In this document: positions 31,024 to 35,953 of the stretch, piece after piece
Position numbering within the stretch: the first letter of the stretch is position 1
Layout: every line of letters begins with the position of its first letter
DNA from: Bacillota bacterium
GTDB taxonomy: Bacteria; Bacillota; Sulfobacillia; Sulfobacillales; Sulfobacillaceae
Direction of reading: 5' to 3'
Assembly (NCBI GenBank): GCA_021795465.1
Contig: JAJYPK010000008.1
Coordinates: forward strand, 1-45,746
Length of the DNA stretch: 45,746 nucleotides
Translations under genes and position numbers: made by a program
The notes under the pieces: model-generated
What the model saw: only the letters and a program-made list of their open reading frames with translations
Told to the model about the DNA's origin: nothing
Database searches by the model: none

Positions 31024-32460
31024 TTAGTGGGAAGTAAATAAGCTGAACAGGGTGTGGACCCAAAACTCGGGCAGTTCATGGGGGGTTTTGGTCTCTAGGT
31101 TGCTAAGCGTTTGGCTATGGGGAATCCCACGGTAGATAACATCCCAAGCATAGGCGTGGGCCACACTAAAAACTTGGGCCAAGGGAGAGATTTGGGACGC
31201 GGTCTTAGCTACTGGGAATCCACCCCCGTCGGGTTGTTCATGGTGGTCACCAATGGCCTCCGTGATCGAATGGGGGAGATCCAAAGGGGCCAGGAGCTGA
31301 AGCGACAACGCGGGATGAGCGCGATACCGGTTCCACGTCGCAAGGCTCTTATGGGGATCATGCACCACGTCGTAGTCAATGGCGGCCAGTCCTAAGTCCG
31401 CTAAGCGTGACACCAAGGTGAGATCCCGGCGAAGGTCGGCATCCCACCCGTGGGCCGACGCCATGGCTTCTGCCACTTGCGTACGCACATCAGCGACGAC
31501 GGGAAGCTTCTCATGGAGGATATCCTGGGCCAACATCATCTGTAGCATTTGCAAGAAACGGTGGATATCCGCTAAAAACGGCGCGGCGGTGTTGTCATGA
31601 GGTCCCTCGGATGCTTCCGAATAGTCTTGAAGGCGACGCCAATGCCTCCACACCCCACTTTGACCATAAAGCGTTTGCGCGGTGTCAATCAGTTGCCGGC
31701 AAAGAGCCGCATCCCCGGCACTGGCGGCAAATTGCGCCAGAATTTCAGAGAGGTTGGCCAACTCACGTTTTTCGAAGGTCATTAAAGAGCTCCACATGCG
31801 TTCAATGGCTTGTTGGCCATAAACTTTTGCCTGGTTCTCGTCATTCGAGAGAATGGCCAGTCGGGTCAGTTCATTTAAGGCATGAAGCCCGGTATCCGGG
31901 GACCACTCAAGGGCGTCTAATAGCTCTTGGCGAGCGGCGGCATAATCGCCGAGCGCGGTAAGAACCACCCCAAGATTGGTGTGAAGGGGATAGCCCATCT
32001 GTGGCATATCTTCGGCCGTTAATAAGGTCTGAGCCTTTCTAAGCCGCTCGAGCGCTTGGCGATATAATTGAGCGTTGGTGTATGCGACCCCATGGTTCAG
32101 GTGATAAATGGCTTGTTGCCGTCGAGGCTGAGAAGACACTTGGAGTTCCAGGCGCTGTAGACCTCTTAATGCGCGGTCTTCATCAGCGCCGAGAGAAAGC
32201 GCCATATTTAAGTGCAGGGTGATGACGAACTGGAGCTCCGGGTAATCACCCAGGACGGATAGTGCCTGGCGGAACCAATGAATGCCGTCCTGATGCCGAT
32301 TCCGCTGCATCGCAATGCGACCCATCGCATCCATGATCTGGGCCTCGGCCACAAAGTCGGTCGCAACAAAATCCAATGCTATCGTAAACTGTTCGTGGGC
32401 AGCATCTAACCATCCGCCTCGATAGAGCCGTTGCCCCTGACGCCAGGGTTCATGCCACAT
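31024..32460 (-). CDS. TPR-repeat protein with a degenerate HD-GYP domain
   Basis: The 478-residue cytosolic protein has N-terminal tetratricopeptide-like helices (about residues 1-270), for example QFTIALDFVATDFVAEAQ and LERLRKAQTLL. The C-terminal part (about 330-470) resembles HD-GYP c-di-GMP phosphodiesterases: YRAHPALSLQLL, then DHHEQPDGGGFP, which matches HHExxDGxGYP. The upstream HD dyad (normally LHDIGK) reads LADLGL and the downstream VADxxDA reads VAHAYA, so at least two metal ligands are missing. It may bind c-di-GMP or a protein partner without hydrolysis. Its start overlaps the histidine kinase end by 11 bases, implying a two-gene unit. Confidence 0.75.
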   Translation of the reverse strand: MWHEPWRQGQRLYRGGWLDAAHEQFTIALDFVATDFVAEAQIMDAMGRIAMQRNRHQDGIHWFRQALSVLGDYPELQFVITLHLNMALSLGADEDRALRGLQRLELQVSSQPRRQQAIYHLNHGVAYTNAQLYRQALERLRKAQTLLTAEDMPQMGYPLHTNLGVVLTALGDYAAARQELLDALEWSPDTGLHALNELTRLAILSNDENQAKVYGQQAIERMWSSLMTFEKRELANLSEILAQFAASAGDAALCRQLIDTAQTLYGQSGVWRHWRRLQDYSEASEGPHDNTAAPFLADIHRFLQMLQMMLAQDILHEKLPVVADVRTQVAEAMASAHGWDADLRRDLTLVSRLADLGLAAIDYDVVHDPHKSLATWNRYRAHPALSLQLLAPLDLPHSITEAIGDHHEQPDGGGFPVAKTASQISPLAQVFSVAHAYAWDVIYRGIPHSQTLSNLETKTPHELPEFWVHTLFSLFTSH

Positions 32461-33142
32461 GATTGTCTAAAGGCACGAAAAAGATGAGGCGCGTCCCTTG
32501 GCCAGCCGTGGAGTGTATCTCACCGGAGCCGCCCATATATTCTGCGCGCTCTATCATCGTGGCTAAGCCAAAATGACCGGAAAGCCGGGTGGCGGGGTCA
32601 AACCCGATGCCATCATCGTGAATTGTGAGCTTGAGCGAAGAATCTCGGGTAGAGAGTGCTATGGTCACGCTCTCTGCCTGAGCATGTTTTCGAATATTGC
32701 TGAGCGCTTCTTGAATCAGTCGGTAGGTACCAATGGTGCGGGCTGGGCTCAAGGCCAAAGGTTTTTCTTTTAAAGCCTCGTCTATCGTGAGGTGGCAGGT
32801 CAGTCCCGTGTCTTGTGTTATTCGGTTGAATAATGATGTCACGGCGGCGATTAGCCCTATTTCATCAATGGCCACCGGTTGTAGATCATAAATCAACTGA
32901 CGGATTTCGTTGATCGATCCGGTGAGGCGTTGTTGAATACGTTGGAGTTCCTCATCGGCGAGTTTACTATCGGTGAGCATCATACGCTGGACAATTTGCA
33001 GACGCATGCTGAGGTTGATGAGCACCTGAATCGGCCCGTCATGCAAATCACGGGCAATGCGCCGGCGCTCCTCTTCTAAGAGTCGGATGCCACGATCTTG
33101 GGGGTCTCGTATGGAAAAATCTTCGTCAAACGTGTGTCCCAC
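32450..33142 (-). CDS. Cytosolic sensor histidine kinase (HisKA_3, NarL/DegS type)
   Basis: About 230 residues without membrane helices or a recognisable sensor domain. The dimerisation/phosphoacceptor helix is EEERRRIARDLHDGPIQVL with His34 as phosphorylation site. The ATPase domain shows EALSNIRKHAQA (N box), HDDGIGFDP and GHFGLATMIERAE. I chose GTG at 33142 because GAGGT precedes it at proper spacing; an ATG at 33166 is also in frame but follows the terminator by six bases and lacks a ribosome binding site. Like DegS, it would take its input from a partner protein, possibly the TPR/HD-GYP protein translated with it. The nearby CheY-like receiver is a possible target, but NarL-type kinases usually use receivers with a DNA-binding domain. 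Confidence 0.88.
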   Translation of the reverse strand: MGHTFDEDFSIRDPQDRGIRLLEEERRRIARDLHDGPIQVLINLSMRLQIVQRMMLTDSKLADEELQRIQQRLTGSINEIRQLIYDLQPVAIDEIGLIAAVTSLFNRITQDTGLTCHLTIDEALKEKPLALSPARTIGTYRLIQEALSNIRKHAQAESVTIALSTRDSSLKLTIHDDGIGFDPATRLSGHFGLATMIERAEYMGGSGEIHSTAGQGTRLIFFVPLDNHVA

Positions 33143-33172
33143 TGTACTGACCTCATTTATTGTCATTGGGAG

Positions 33173-33198
33173 AAAAAGGCAGGAGAAGATCCTGCCTT
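33173..33198 (-). terminator. Rho-independent terminator after the c-di-GMP-controlled peptide gene
   Basis: On the minus strand, AAGGCAGGA (33198-33190) and TCCTGCCTT (33184-33176) form a perfect nine-base-pair stem with a five-base loop, running into TTTTT. It starts four bases after the stop codon of the small peptide gene and ends just before the histidine kinase gene. Kinase and TPR gene expression from upstream would need read-through. Confidence 0.85.
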
Positions 33199-33201
33199 CG
33201 G

Positions 33202-33336
33202 CTAGTCGTCCCAATAGAATATGGTACCATTGGTGTGAACGCCGTGACTAGGGGTGGCGGTGACCGCAAATGCGGGAAGGGAGCCAACCAGCAGCACCCC
33301 TAGCGCCAGTCCAATCAGAGCGAGTCGTTTTAGCAA
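33202..33336 (-). CDS. Small secreted peptide, 44 residues, under a c-di-GMP riboswitch
   Basis: This gene is too short for usual ORF callers. TTG at 33336 is preceded by AAAGGAG (33351-33345) with eight bases of spacing. The product starts with a classic signal peptide: MLKR, then a hydrophobic core LALIGLALGVLLVG, then SLPAFA as signal peptidase I site after Ala24. The predicted mature peptide has 20 residues, starts VTATPSHG and ends FYWDD; it has no cysteine. A GTG three codons earlier is a poorer start because it overlaps the ribosome binding site. A c-di-GMP-I riboswitch lies directly upstream and a strong terminator directly downstream, so this is a complete one-gene transcription unit. 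I know no homologue. Role as signal, adhesion modulator or surface peptide is open. Confidence 0.8.
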   Translation of the reverse strand: MLKRLALIGLALGVLLVGSLPAFAVTATPSHGVHTNGTIFYWDD

Positions 33337-33365
33337 TACGTCCACTCCTTTCGAAGCCGGAACCA

Positions 33366-33466
33366 GCTCCGGCAACCCGGCTATCCTGACTCTATCGCGT
33401 GAGAGCGTTAGACCCGTGGTTTTGCGTCCTCGGCTTTCACCGAGTTTGCAGGTGATACAGGTTCAT
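33366..33466 (-). ncRNA. Cyclic di-GMP-I (GEMM-I) riboswitch aptamer
   Basis: Read on the minus strand, the leader has the hallmark order of the GEMM-I aptamer: GCAAAC, a stem CUCGGU capped by a GAAA tetraloop and closed by GCCGAG, then GACGCAAA, then GGGUCUAA and a second hairpin, and finally AGGAUAGCCGGGUUGCC. The tetraloop and its CUAA/AGGAUAG receptor are the docking partners of the known structure. After the aptamer, GCCGGA/TCCGGC (33373-33356) forms a hairpin that shares bases with the aptamer's 3' edge and ends five bases before the AAAGGAG of the peptide gene. This is a plausible expression platform. No U-run follows it, so control of translation or of RNA folding around the ribosome binding site is more likely than simple termination. 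On/off direction is not clear from sequence. Confidence 0.9.
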
Positions 33467-33494
33467 TGTAGGCACTACGGACTCTAAGACCAAA

Positions 33495-33523
33495 GGATTA
33501 AGCCCTTATAATCTTTCTGACAA
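33495..33523 (-). promoter_or_regulatory. Candidate promoter of the riboswitch transcript
   Basis: TTGTCA (33523-33518) and TAATCC (33500-33495) have a 17-base spacer on the minus strand, placing the start of transcription about 20 bases before the aptamer. The -10 box is weak. TATAAG (33510-33505) is an alternative -10, but lacks a good -35. The site follows the FapA stop codon by about 20 bases, so the peptide unit can be transcribed separately. Confidence 0.45.
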
Positions 33524-33541: not shown

Positions 33542-35362
33542 TTAAAGGCTGTCGACCACCGCATTTTTAGTGACCCGGTTTACGCGGTGCCGTTGTTGCC
33601 CAATTTGCACGACCGTGTTGGGGAAGAGAATATCTGCAGTAACTTTACCCGATGCCGTAAAGACTTGGATGCTCGTTTCGGTACGATCTTCGGATCCGAT
33701 AAATTGGGCCGTAATGGCTTGGTGAGCCTGATAGAATCCCCCTACCAGGGTTCGAGCTTGAATCTGAGTTCCGGCTTCCATGTCCGAGGTTACCGCATCT
33801 CTAACTACAATGGCACCGTGGGACCGAATCAGGGAACGGTAGGTATTGTGAAGAAAGGCGGTTTGGGAAGCATCAGTCAAAGGGGTAACGGGTGCCTCCC
33901 GCGATAGCCACTCTTCGATCGCGGTATGGAGATTTTCCAAAGCGTTCATGTCCTGCATCTCCTGCCAGGCTTGAGGTTCGAATCCCTGGAGAATCTTTTC
34001 AATGAGCACACCGACACCCGAGAGAGCGCGAGGAGGGCTTTCGTCGATGCCTTTTCTCTGGCTCAGCCATAGGACGGTGGCAGGCACAAAACTACATTTT
34101 TGTCGGAATAACTTTTCTAGTACGTTGGAAAATTGGTGGCGATAGGCGTCGGGTGCCTCCAAGCGGACCTGTTCCATCATTTGCGTGAGAGTCTCGACGG
34201 CGTCGCCGATCTCAGAGATTTTCCTACGGAGCTCGATGGCAAACGGATCGGCGACACCGCATTCGAGAGTCGCATAATCCGTGGTCCCTTCGACGAATAT
34301 ACTTCCACCAGCCAGGATGCGCGAATGGCTGACGTCTTTGGTGATGATCACGTTCCCCTCGACAGTCAATACGGTGTGGGTCAAGGAACCTTCAACCAGG
34401 AGATCCCCGTCTTCGTGGAGAATCTCATTATCACGGGAAAGACTATGGTCTATCACTTTTAAGGGCCTCAAACGAACCCCTTTATCGTCCCAGATGACGC
34501 GACCCGGGACATGGGCGACCAAGTGCTGCCCCTTATTCATGGGAACGATTCCGGGGCCCATATGTAAGGAGGGCATGGCAGAATGGGGGGGAGCAATCGG
34601 TGTCGCAAAAACGGTCATGCCCACGCGAGAGGGATTACCGGTCACTCGGGTGGCTACGACGGTGCCCGCGGAAACCAAATCCGGATGCGAAATCTCGGTA
34701 CCGGGATAGTTTTCGGTGGCGCGTCGCGGCACCGGAAGGTAGGTGTCGGCTACAGCAGGTTCTGCTGCGGACCCATACGCGATGGGTATCGACCCGGATT
34801 GGCGTTGTTGCAGGAAATCTTCAATGAGCGTAGGCGACACGCGCCCGTAACGAATTTGTTTATGGTCCATTTCAGCCAGAACATGCTCCATCAAAATGGG
34901 CACGGGGGCGCGCAAAAAATCGTAGCTGGCGATCTCCAAAAAAGATGCTGGAGCACTGTCTTTCAGTTGGCGCACCACCCCTCTTTCAAAGGTTGCGGTG
35001 AGAGTGGCCACCATCCCGGGTCCGTCGACATCGACGGTGACTCGGGATCTAGAAGCCGGTGATTGGGGTCGCGCCACAATATGGTCGCTTGCTTGGACCA
35101 CGATAGACCCGACACGCGGTTTTCCGTTTACGATTAACTCGATATCAGATCTTCCAGGATCCATGTAAATGACGGCATAGGGTTCCCCGGGGTCGGGATC
35201 TTTCACATGAATGTGGCCATTGCCCTCCACCCAAACTGCGCCTGGTTGCGGGGATTTTGGGACAGATTCTTCAACGATCGGTAGCGTGGGGATTTCCGCT
35301 GGTACCGGTACCCCATCAAGATTGCGTTTTGCACGTTGTATGAACCACTGCTTAATACTCAT
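33542..35362 (-). CDS. fapA: FapA/DUF342-family protein
   Basis: This 606-residue protein belongs to the FapA (DUF342) family, named for a polar flagellar assembly factor in Vibrio and widespread in Clostridia and Bacilli. After a variable N-terminal region (about 200 residues) comes the family core with short beta-helix-type repeats: EDGDLLVEGSLTHTVLTVEG, then NVIITKDVSHSRILAGGSIFV. A helical, charged segment (IGDAVETLTQMMEQ) and a C-terminal beta-rich part follow. The start ATG lies one base after the stop of the receiver gene, so the two are co-translated. No flagellar genes are in the window, so a role in cell-surface or polar organisation is inferred only from the family. Confidence 0.85.
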   Translation of the reverse strand: MSIKQWFIQRAKRNLDGVPVPAEIPTLPIVEESVPKSPQPGAVWVEGNGHIHVKDPDPGEPYAVIYMDPGRSDIELIVNGKPRVGSIVVQASDHIVARPQSPASRSRVTVDVDGPGMVATLTATFERGVVRQLKDSAPASFLEIASYDFLRAPVPILMEHVLAEMDHKQIRYGRVSPTLIEDFLQQRQSGSIPIAYGSAAEPAVADTYLPVPRRATENYPGTEISHPDLVSAGTVVATRVTGNPSRVGMTVFATPIAPPHSAMPSLHMGPGIVPMNKGQHLVAHVPGRVIWDDKGVRLRPLKVIDHSLSRDNEILHEDGDLLVEGSLTHTVLTVEGNVIITKDVSHSRILAGGSIFVEGTTDYATLECGVADPFAIELRRKISEIGDAVETLTQMMEQVRLEAPDAYRHQFSNVLEKLFRQKCSFVPATVLWLSQRKGIDESPPRALSGVGVLIEKILQGFEPQAWQEMQDMNALENLHTAIEEWLSREAPVTPLTDASQTAFLHNTYRSLIRSHGAIVVRDAVTSDMEAGTQIQARTLVGGFYQAHQAITAQFIGSEDRTETSIQVFTASGKVTADILFPNTVVQIGQQRHRVNRVTKNAVVDSL

Positions 35363-35363
35363 C

Positions 35364-35792
35364 TTATACTTCTTGGCGAGGGCTCACCCATTGCGCTAAC
35401 CATTGATTCCAGTCCTCCACATCGTGAGGAATTCGCTCTAATGAGGCGATTAAGGTATCCAACGTGGTTAAGGTGATAGGTTTAGGCAAGAACATGTCTA
35501 CACCTGCGAGCAAAGCCCGATGCCTTAGTTCAGGATCATCCAACACCGTAATCATTACCAACGTCATTCGTGGGTATCGGATGCGTAATTCACGTGACAA
35601 CGCAATCCCATCCATTCCAGGCATTTGGTAGTCCGTGAACACAAGGTCTACGGGTTCCTTTTCTAGAAGTGCCAATGCCGTAGGACCGTCGGGCACGGTT
35701 TTGATACTTTGGGCCCCAGCTTGGGACACTAACATTGACAGCACGTCACGCGTTTCTGCGGTGTCGTCCACAATGAGCGTAGTGATGGGCAT
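35364..35792 (-). CDS. CheY-like single-domain response regulator
   Basis: The 142-residue protein is a receiver domain with no output domain. The acidic pair Asp9-Asp10 (IVDDT), phosphoacceptor Asp54 (VFTDYQMPG), Thr82 (MITV) and Lys104 (FLPKPIT) are all present. About 20 extra residues ending in a Trp-rich helix (DVEDWNQWLAQWV) follow the usual receiver. The start at 35792 is chosen for GGAGGG seven bases upstream; codons further up lack one. It heads a unit with FapA (one-base gap). It may act on a protein partner, as CheY or Spo0F do, and the histidine kinase in the same cluster is a possible donor. Confidence 0.92.
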   Translation of the reverse strand: MPITTLIVDDTAETRDVLSMLVSQAGAQSIKTVPDGPTALALLEKEPVDLVFTDYQMPGMDGIALSRELRIRYPRMTLVMITVLDDPELRHRALLAGVDMFLPKPITLTTLDTLIASLERIPHDVEDWNQWLAQWVSPRQEV

Positions 35793-35953
35793 GTGATCCC
35801 TCCTCATCGCGGTATCCATTTCGACGTGTACATTGAGAAATCTGGACCGCTATACGGAAAAAATTCGCGAATGGGGGCCAAATTCCTGTTTTTACTGCAG
35901 GATTTTTTTCTGCGAGGACCGCCTTCTTCGGGAAGTCCATGTCGTCGCACGCT

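Follow-up and report, generated by a model that had tools for sequence, protein, structure and literature searches.

A c-di-GMP-I (GEMM-I) riboswitch precedes a 44-codon gene for a predicted exported peptide in the window, the whole 45,746-nucleotide stretch of a Sulfobacillaceae bacterium analyzed here, and the peptide gene stands in a conserved operon that also encodes a histidine kinase and a protein with TPR and degenerate HD-GYP domains (TPR-HD). At a probability of roughly 60%, we read the operon as encoding a pheromone system that is Rap/Phr-like (RRNPP-like), with the propeptide under riboswitch control and the TPR-HD protein as its predicted receptor. Directly established are the riboswitch, the coding frame, the export-type signal sequence, the conserved linkage and the variable tails of the peptides. 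That riboswitch, peptide and predicted receptor recur together in dozens of related bacteria suggests that a messenger inside the cell determines how much of an intercellular signal is put out. The features of the window are as follows.

35364..35819 (−), receiver-only response regulator (Pfam Response_reg only), first gene of the conserved operon
33542..35362 (−), FapA-like protein (Pfam FapA_N and partial FapA), similarly placed in the operons of relatives
33465..33470 (−), possible −10 box TACAAT just 5′ of the aptamer, tentative
33368..33460 (−), c-di-GMP-I (GEMM-I) riboswitch aptamer, RF01051 match, with U at position 20 preceding the G21-C46 pair
33337..33367 (−), leader or expression platform from the aptamer to the start codon, including the SD GGAG at 33348-33345
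33202..33336 (−), 44-codon gene for an exported pheromone-like propeptide, with six orthologues and with longer homologues that occupy its place in the operon elsewhere
33265..33336 (−), signal-peptide codons, read from sequence
33205..33225 (−), predicted mature tail TIFYWDD, following a conserved NG
33175..33199 (−), 10-bp hairpin after the stop codon, with a U-run behind it in the window species only
32450..33166 (−), cytosolic histidine kinase (Pfam HisKA_3 and HATPase_c), whose orthologue adjoins the peptide in nearly all loci
31024..32460 (−), TPR and degenerate HD-GYP protein (Pfam TPR/HD_5), proposed peptide receptor

The minus-strand riboswitch, which a first-pass annotation had read from the letters alone, was recovered by the covariance model. 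RF01051 matches 33460-33368 (−) at full length with 70.4 bits (E 6.4e-12; gathering threshold, 35 bits), and is the sole Rfam match at or above the gathering threshold within the window. The orthologous aptamers in five sister species score 65.5-78.1 bits. The 3′ end of the aptamer is 31 nt from the TTG start of the peptide gene, and from the aptamer 3′ strand through to the SD no base differs among the six species. In predicted folds, the SD pairs with signal-peptide codons in each of the six species when the aptamer is forced to form, and in most free folds as well, and a recoding control of this pairing gave marginal support only. Upstream of the aptamer, the orthologues have TACAAT, or TAAAAT in one species, and the promoter scan gave no match for the candidate −10 box of the window.

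The annotation had also credited the aptamer with all GEMM-I hallmarks. It missed that the ligand-contacting base 20 is off the c-di-GMP consensus. Position 20 is U in the window and U, C, A, A and A in its orthologues, with G in none of the six, so the window clade differs here from c-di-GMP-I riboswitches (RF01051) with G at that base. Among 66 GEMM-I aptamers of the order, G occurs in 45 and A in 17, one being unscored, and U or C occurs in the window's clade only. Most Alicyclobacillus aptamers preceding the peptides have G20. Because natural c-di-GMP-I members with A20 exist, the departure lowers the certainty of the ligand, not that of the aptamer identity. Base 20 of GEMM-I contacts the ligand (PMC9049102), and the G20A change is associated with cGAMP binding (PMC6274999). 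With U at position 20, the c-di-GMP affinity of the window aptamer is uncertain, and it could bind c-di-GMP more weakly or have a different dinucleotide as its ligand. cGAMP as a ligand is compatible with the A20 of three species, which would leave U20 and C20 unexplained, and A20 is common enough in the order to ask whether cGAMP is used.

Incidentally, the window's own genome contains two more GEMM-I aptamers beside that of the window. The strongest aptamer of this genome (C58) precedes an exported protein containing ..SRSDYGINVFSYDNQLNAPST.., and a GEMM-I aptamer plus hairpin before an exported protein of this type is found in many Sulfobacillus-order genomes, the protein being ~660-860 aa in L033, L038, L045, L056, L060 and L084. 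GEMM-I variants in which GCACAC replaces GCAAAC (L035, L037, L047 and L087; own genome, C66:22173-22266) precede a ~104-117 aa protein resembling a DNA-binding regulator. Other variants with GCAC instead of GCAAAC, some of them with A20 (L039, L043, L048, L053, L061, L069 and L074), are located at the start of a ~240-aa membrane-like protein or extend across it, with a possible start codon within the aptamer 3′ strand.

The peptide gene and its ribosome binding site stand as first annotated, with AAAGGAG just upstream of a TTG start at 33336 and a stop codon ending at 33202. The product is MLKRLALIGLALGVLLVGSLPAFAVTATPSHGVHTNGTIFYWDD, whose signal region MLKRLALIGLALGVLLVGSLPAFA opens with a short positively charged stretch and continues with a hydrophobic core and a small-x-small site. 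These signal-peptide features, also claimed earlier, are clear by sequence and by a rule-based filter, and export is predicted. About 20 residues follow the signal site, ending with FYWDD. No family of Pfam or NCBIfam is matched by the peptide, in keeping with the annotator's knowing of no described family. The frame is conserved in relatives that keep the riboswitch; dN/dS is ~0.2-0.35 in most pairs of the six orthologous species, and the variable columns are distributed 11/4/19 by codon position. Judged from these substitutions, the 44-codon frame is under purifying selection. A chance ORF is ruled out because there are six orthologues and homologues in other genera. Codons are identical more often in the peptide gene than in the neighboring kinase gene (32/38 v 106/190, p 0.0006; 25/35 v 60/137 in a second comparison, p 0.003).

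The hairpin 3′ of the stop codon is kept in all six species, with 100% of the cells paired and two pairs changed on both sides. The first-pass annotation called it a perfect terminator. The hairpin is indeed real and covarying and has a U-run in the window, but the U-tract is absent from five of the six orthologues, where the kinase gene is close behind. A perfect terminator was thus rejected as a family feature, and the earlier view that the whole transcript serves the peptide is not supported as a general claim. In an Alicyclobacillus locus (L215), a terminator-like hairpin with a U-run separates the peptide from the kinase, and a terminator-like end after the peptide is seen in the window and this locus only.

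GEMM-I aptamers were searched for in 61 genomes, and the regions around the matches were then taken. The pair of aptamer and peptide, which the annotation proposed to look for in related genomes, occupies the corresponding site in six species, which belong to two Sulfobacillus-like genera. Among 42 genomes of the order, a profile built from these six peptides found no further short-form peptides. The operon runs from the response regulator through the FapA-like protein, the exported peptide and the HisKA_3 kinase to the TPR-HD protein, and this gene order recurs in further genera as well as in a second family. There, the gap between the FapA and kinase genes holds an exported peptide of 66-71 aa, mostly ending with a W-D motif (e.g., VYIWDD), and a GEMM-I aptamer heads the operon in L175, L176/L212, L177, L185 and L188. 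The peptide is a member of an old signaling operon. Its membership in a kinase/TPR-HD operon, absent from the first-pass annotation, gives the peptide a probable role.

A TPR-HD profile scan put names to some of the carriers, namely Sulfobacillus sp., S. benefaciens, S. harzensis and Alicyclobacillus. In Alicyclobacillus loci L213 and L215, a GEMM-I aptamer is directly 5′ of an exported peptide gene. In the order of Alicyclobacillus, TPR-HD is present in 24 of 59 genomes, and in 24 of 28 further TPR-HD loci (one of them, L346, read by eye) a GEMM-I aptamer ends 21-32 nt before an exported peptide gene. These aptamers match RF01051 in 22 loci and the variant RF03167 in two. With two more, the riboswitch-peptide loci of this order amount to 26, counted irrespective of kinship, and the kinase and TPR-HD are normally next. 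L342 and L344 keep the kinase and TPR-HD without a riboswitch or recognizable peptide; neither riboswitch nor peptide was seen in L330, and L337 ends at a contig edge. In L288 and L289, the aptamer is 5′ of a TPR-like gene with the peptide gene immediately after. The peptide gene directly adjoins a TPR or TPR-HD gene in L213, L288, L289, L347 and L348. When ~166 kb of related loci were put through a rule-based scan, small ORFs of the exported type turned up at five target sites and at one other site; over-extended neighboring ORFs masked further true peptides.

FapA-like proteins, that of the window at 33542-35362 among them, are a frequent partner of the peptide-kinase-TPR-HD set. In three loci (L213:11486-11581, L336:1208-1296 and L339:1242-1330), a second GEMM-I aptamer is 5′ of the pair of FapA-like protein and response regulator, so both halves of the system appear to be under the same signal there.

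The propeptide has 44 aa in the window and 44-75 aa in relatives. The export signal is kept across the family, and most members have a (D/N)G site near the end. The tails after this site are variable, have 5-8 residues, and differ between species and between paralogues. They include TIFYWDD in the window, PVWYWDD in the second genus, MVLIW, MIWIWD, WRDFPGD, TRPIVV, YRMFW, FRLVVE, WRTAL and TVPIWPD, among others. One genome (G196) has two copies with distinct tails, WRTAL in L332 and WREIW in L347. Such differences between paralogues are what one would expect of several peptide codes, each with its own receptor, although they are no proof of it. The long peptides have a conserved middle, SN.GS..GQ..RS, so the active part may exceed the tail; the window peptide does not have this middle block.

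No sensor domain was recognized by Pfam in the kinase, so a peptide outside the cell would need a cytosolic reader. The TPR-HD protein of the window has 478 aa, and its predicted model has a mean pLDDT of 90. Foldseek with this model returned TPR superhelices including RapI, with designed and eukaryotic TPRs scoring above Rap, and the HD-GYP protein Bd1817. In the TPR part, Asn122 is invariant in 45 of 45 aligned TPR-HD proteins and Asn162 in 44 of 45; in other TPRs, such asparagines hold peptide backbones. None of the 45 retains the HD-pair histidine (the site reads R-[FLMI]-x-D), while the HHExxDGxG[FY]P motif is mostly kept. For this reason the HD domain is probably no phosphodiesterase, and a feedback loop by a catalytic HD-GYP was ruled out. 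Bd1817 (PDB 3TM8) and similar HD-GYP proteins share the fold and the HHExxDGxG[FY]P motif, but here the domain is fused to TPRs and the HD-pair histidine is gone in all members.

The course of signaling can be pictured as follows. The GEMM-I riboswitch would act on the expression of the propeptide, probably at translation, and the propeptide would leave the cell by Sec; the sign of the switch belongs to what we infer. Once outside, the propeptide is probably processed to free its C-terminal tail, about TIFYWDD here, and an oligopeptide permease probably returns this tail to the cytosol, where the TPR domain of the TPR-HD protein from the same operon would bind it. The TPR-HD protein would in turn modulate both the cytosolic HisKA_3 kinase and the receiver-only regulator, by analogy with Rap-Phr acting on Spo0F. 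In favor of this picture, 11 GGDEF stretches and 17 stretches for oligopeptide-binding proteins occur in the window's own genome.

Some points speak against this pheromone system, namely U20 of the aptamer, the kinase gene between the peptide and TPR-HD genes, the designed and eukaryotic TPRs ranked above Rap, the conserved middle of the peptides, and the two loci that lack riboswitch and peptide (L342 and L344). The peptide could instead be structural or inhibitory, acting outside the cell or in the wall, with the TPR-HD protein and kinase answering another signal. A conserved middle suits such a role, as a discarded pro-region need not be conserved. On the other hand, the window peptide does without that block, and a structural role fits poorly with tight linkage to TPR-HD over two orders and with tails that differ between paralogues, making it unlikely.

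That the riboswitch serves chiefly the kinase and TPR-HD, with the peptide gene as an upstream ORF coupling or attenuating the downstream genes, is less probable again. The missing U-tract in five orthologues and the operon-head aptamers of other genera, which would govern all genes, agree with it, but the long homologous peptides keep conserved residues and signal sequences, and U-runs close the peptide unit in the window and at the peptide/kinase boundary of L215. Finally, leader, coding sequence and hairpin could form a dual-function RNA, regulatory RNA as well as message, as the conserved codon choice and the covarying hairpin would have it. Pairing between leader and codons can account for the codon constraint, however, no target is known, and other genera keep the peptide without RNA of the window type, so we regard a dual function as very improbable.

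The pheromone system resembles RRNPP(A) systems (Rap-Phr, NprR-NprX, PlcR-PapR and AimR-AimP; PMC10075063, PMC9765709) in having a small propeptide predicted to be exported, a ~480 aa TPR protein in the locus, a variable C-terminal tail and a Bacillota host. It differs in that the output is a C-terminal degenerate HD-GYP domain rather than an HTH or the Rap helix bundle, the kinase gene usually splits the pair, and the propeptide is under a riboswitch. RRNPP systems have been defined by a propeptide of 10-100 aa, a TPR receptor of 250-500 aa and direct adjacency of their genes (PMC10075063). The lengths here, 44 and 478 aa, are within these ranges, whereas the kinase gene breaks the adjacency in the window and most loci, so we do not file the system as a plain RRNPP member.

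In Bacillus subtilis, the Rap-Phr-Spo0F phosphorelay likewise unites a receiver-only regulator, a kinase, a TPR protein and an exported peptide in one pathway. Here they form one operon, the Rap N-terminal bundle is missing, and a FapA-like protein and an HD domain are extra. The riboswitch resembles c-di-GMP-I riboswitches (RF01051; variant RF03167) in its covariance-model match, GAAA-capped stem, receptor motif and short distance to the SD, but precedes a gene for a pheromone-like peptide. In the open-licence literature, we found neither a TPR-HD pheromone receptor nor a c-di-GMP riboswitch preceding a pheromone gene. We tentatively raise, though we think it doubtful, a new class of peptide signaling with a two-way link, in which a cyclic-dinucleotide riboswitch sets pheromone output and the degenerate HD-GYP of the TPR reader senses cyclic dinucleotides.

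The tails are concrete peptides to synthesize, and the link is directly testable. Inside the cell, c-di-GMP decides whether a motile or a sessile way of life is adopted, and pheromones coordinate cells. In acidophilic and thermophilic Bacillota, one RNA switch seemingly wires c-di-GMP to pheromone signaling, and if the two-way reading is true, one operon would join an internal second messenger to cell-to-cell signaling.
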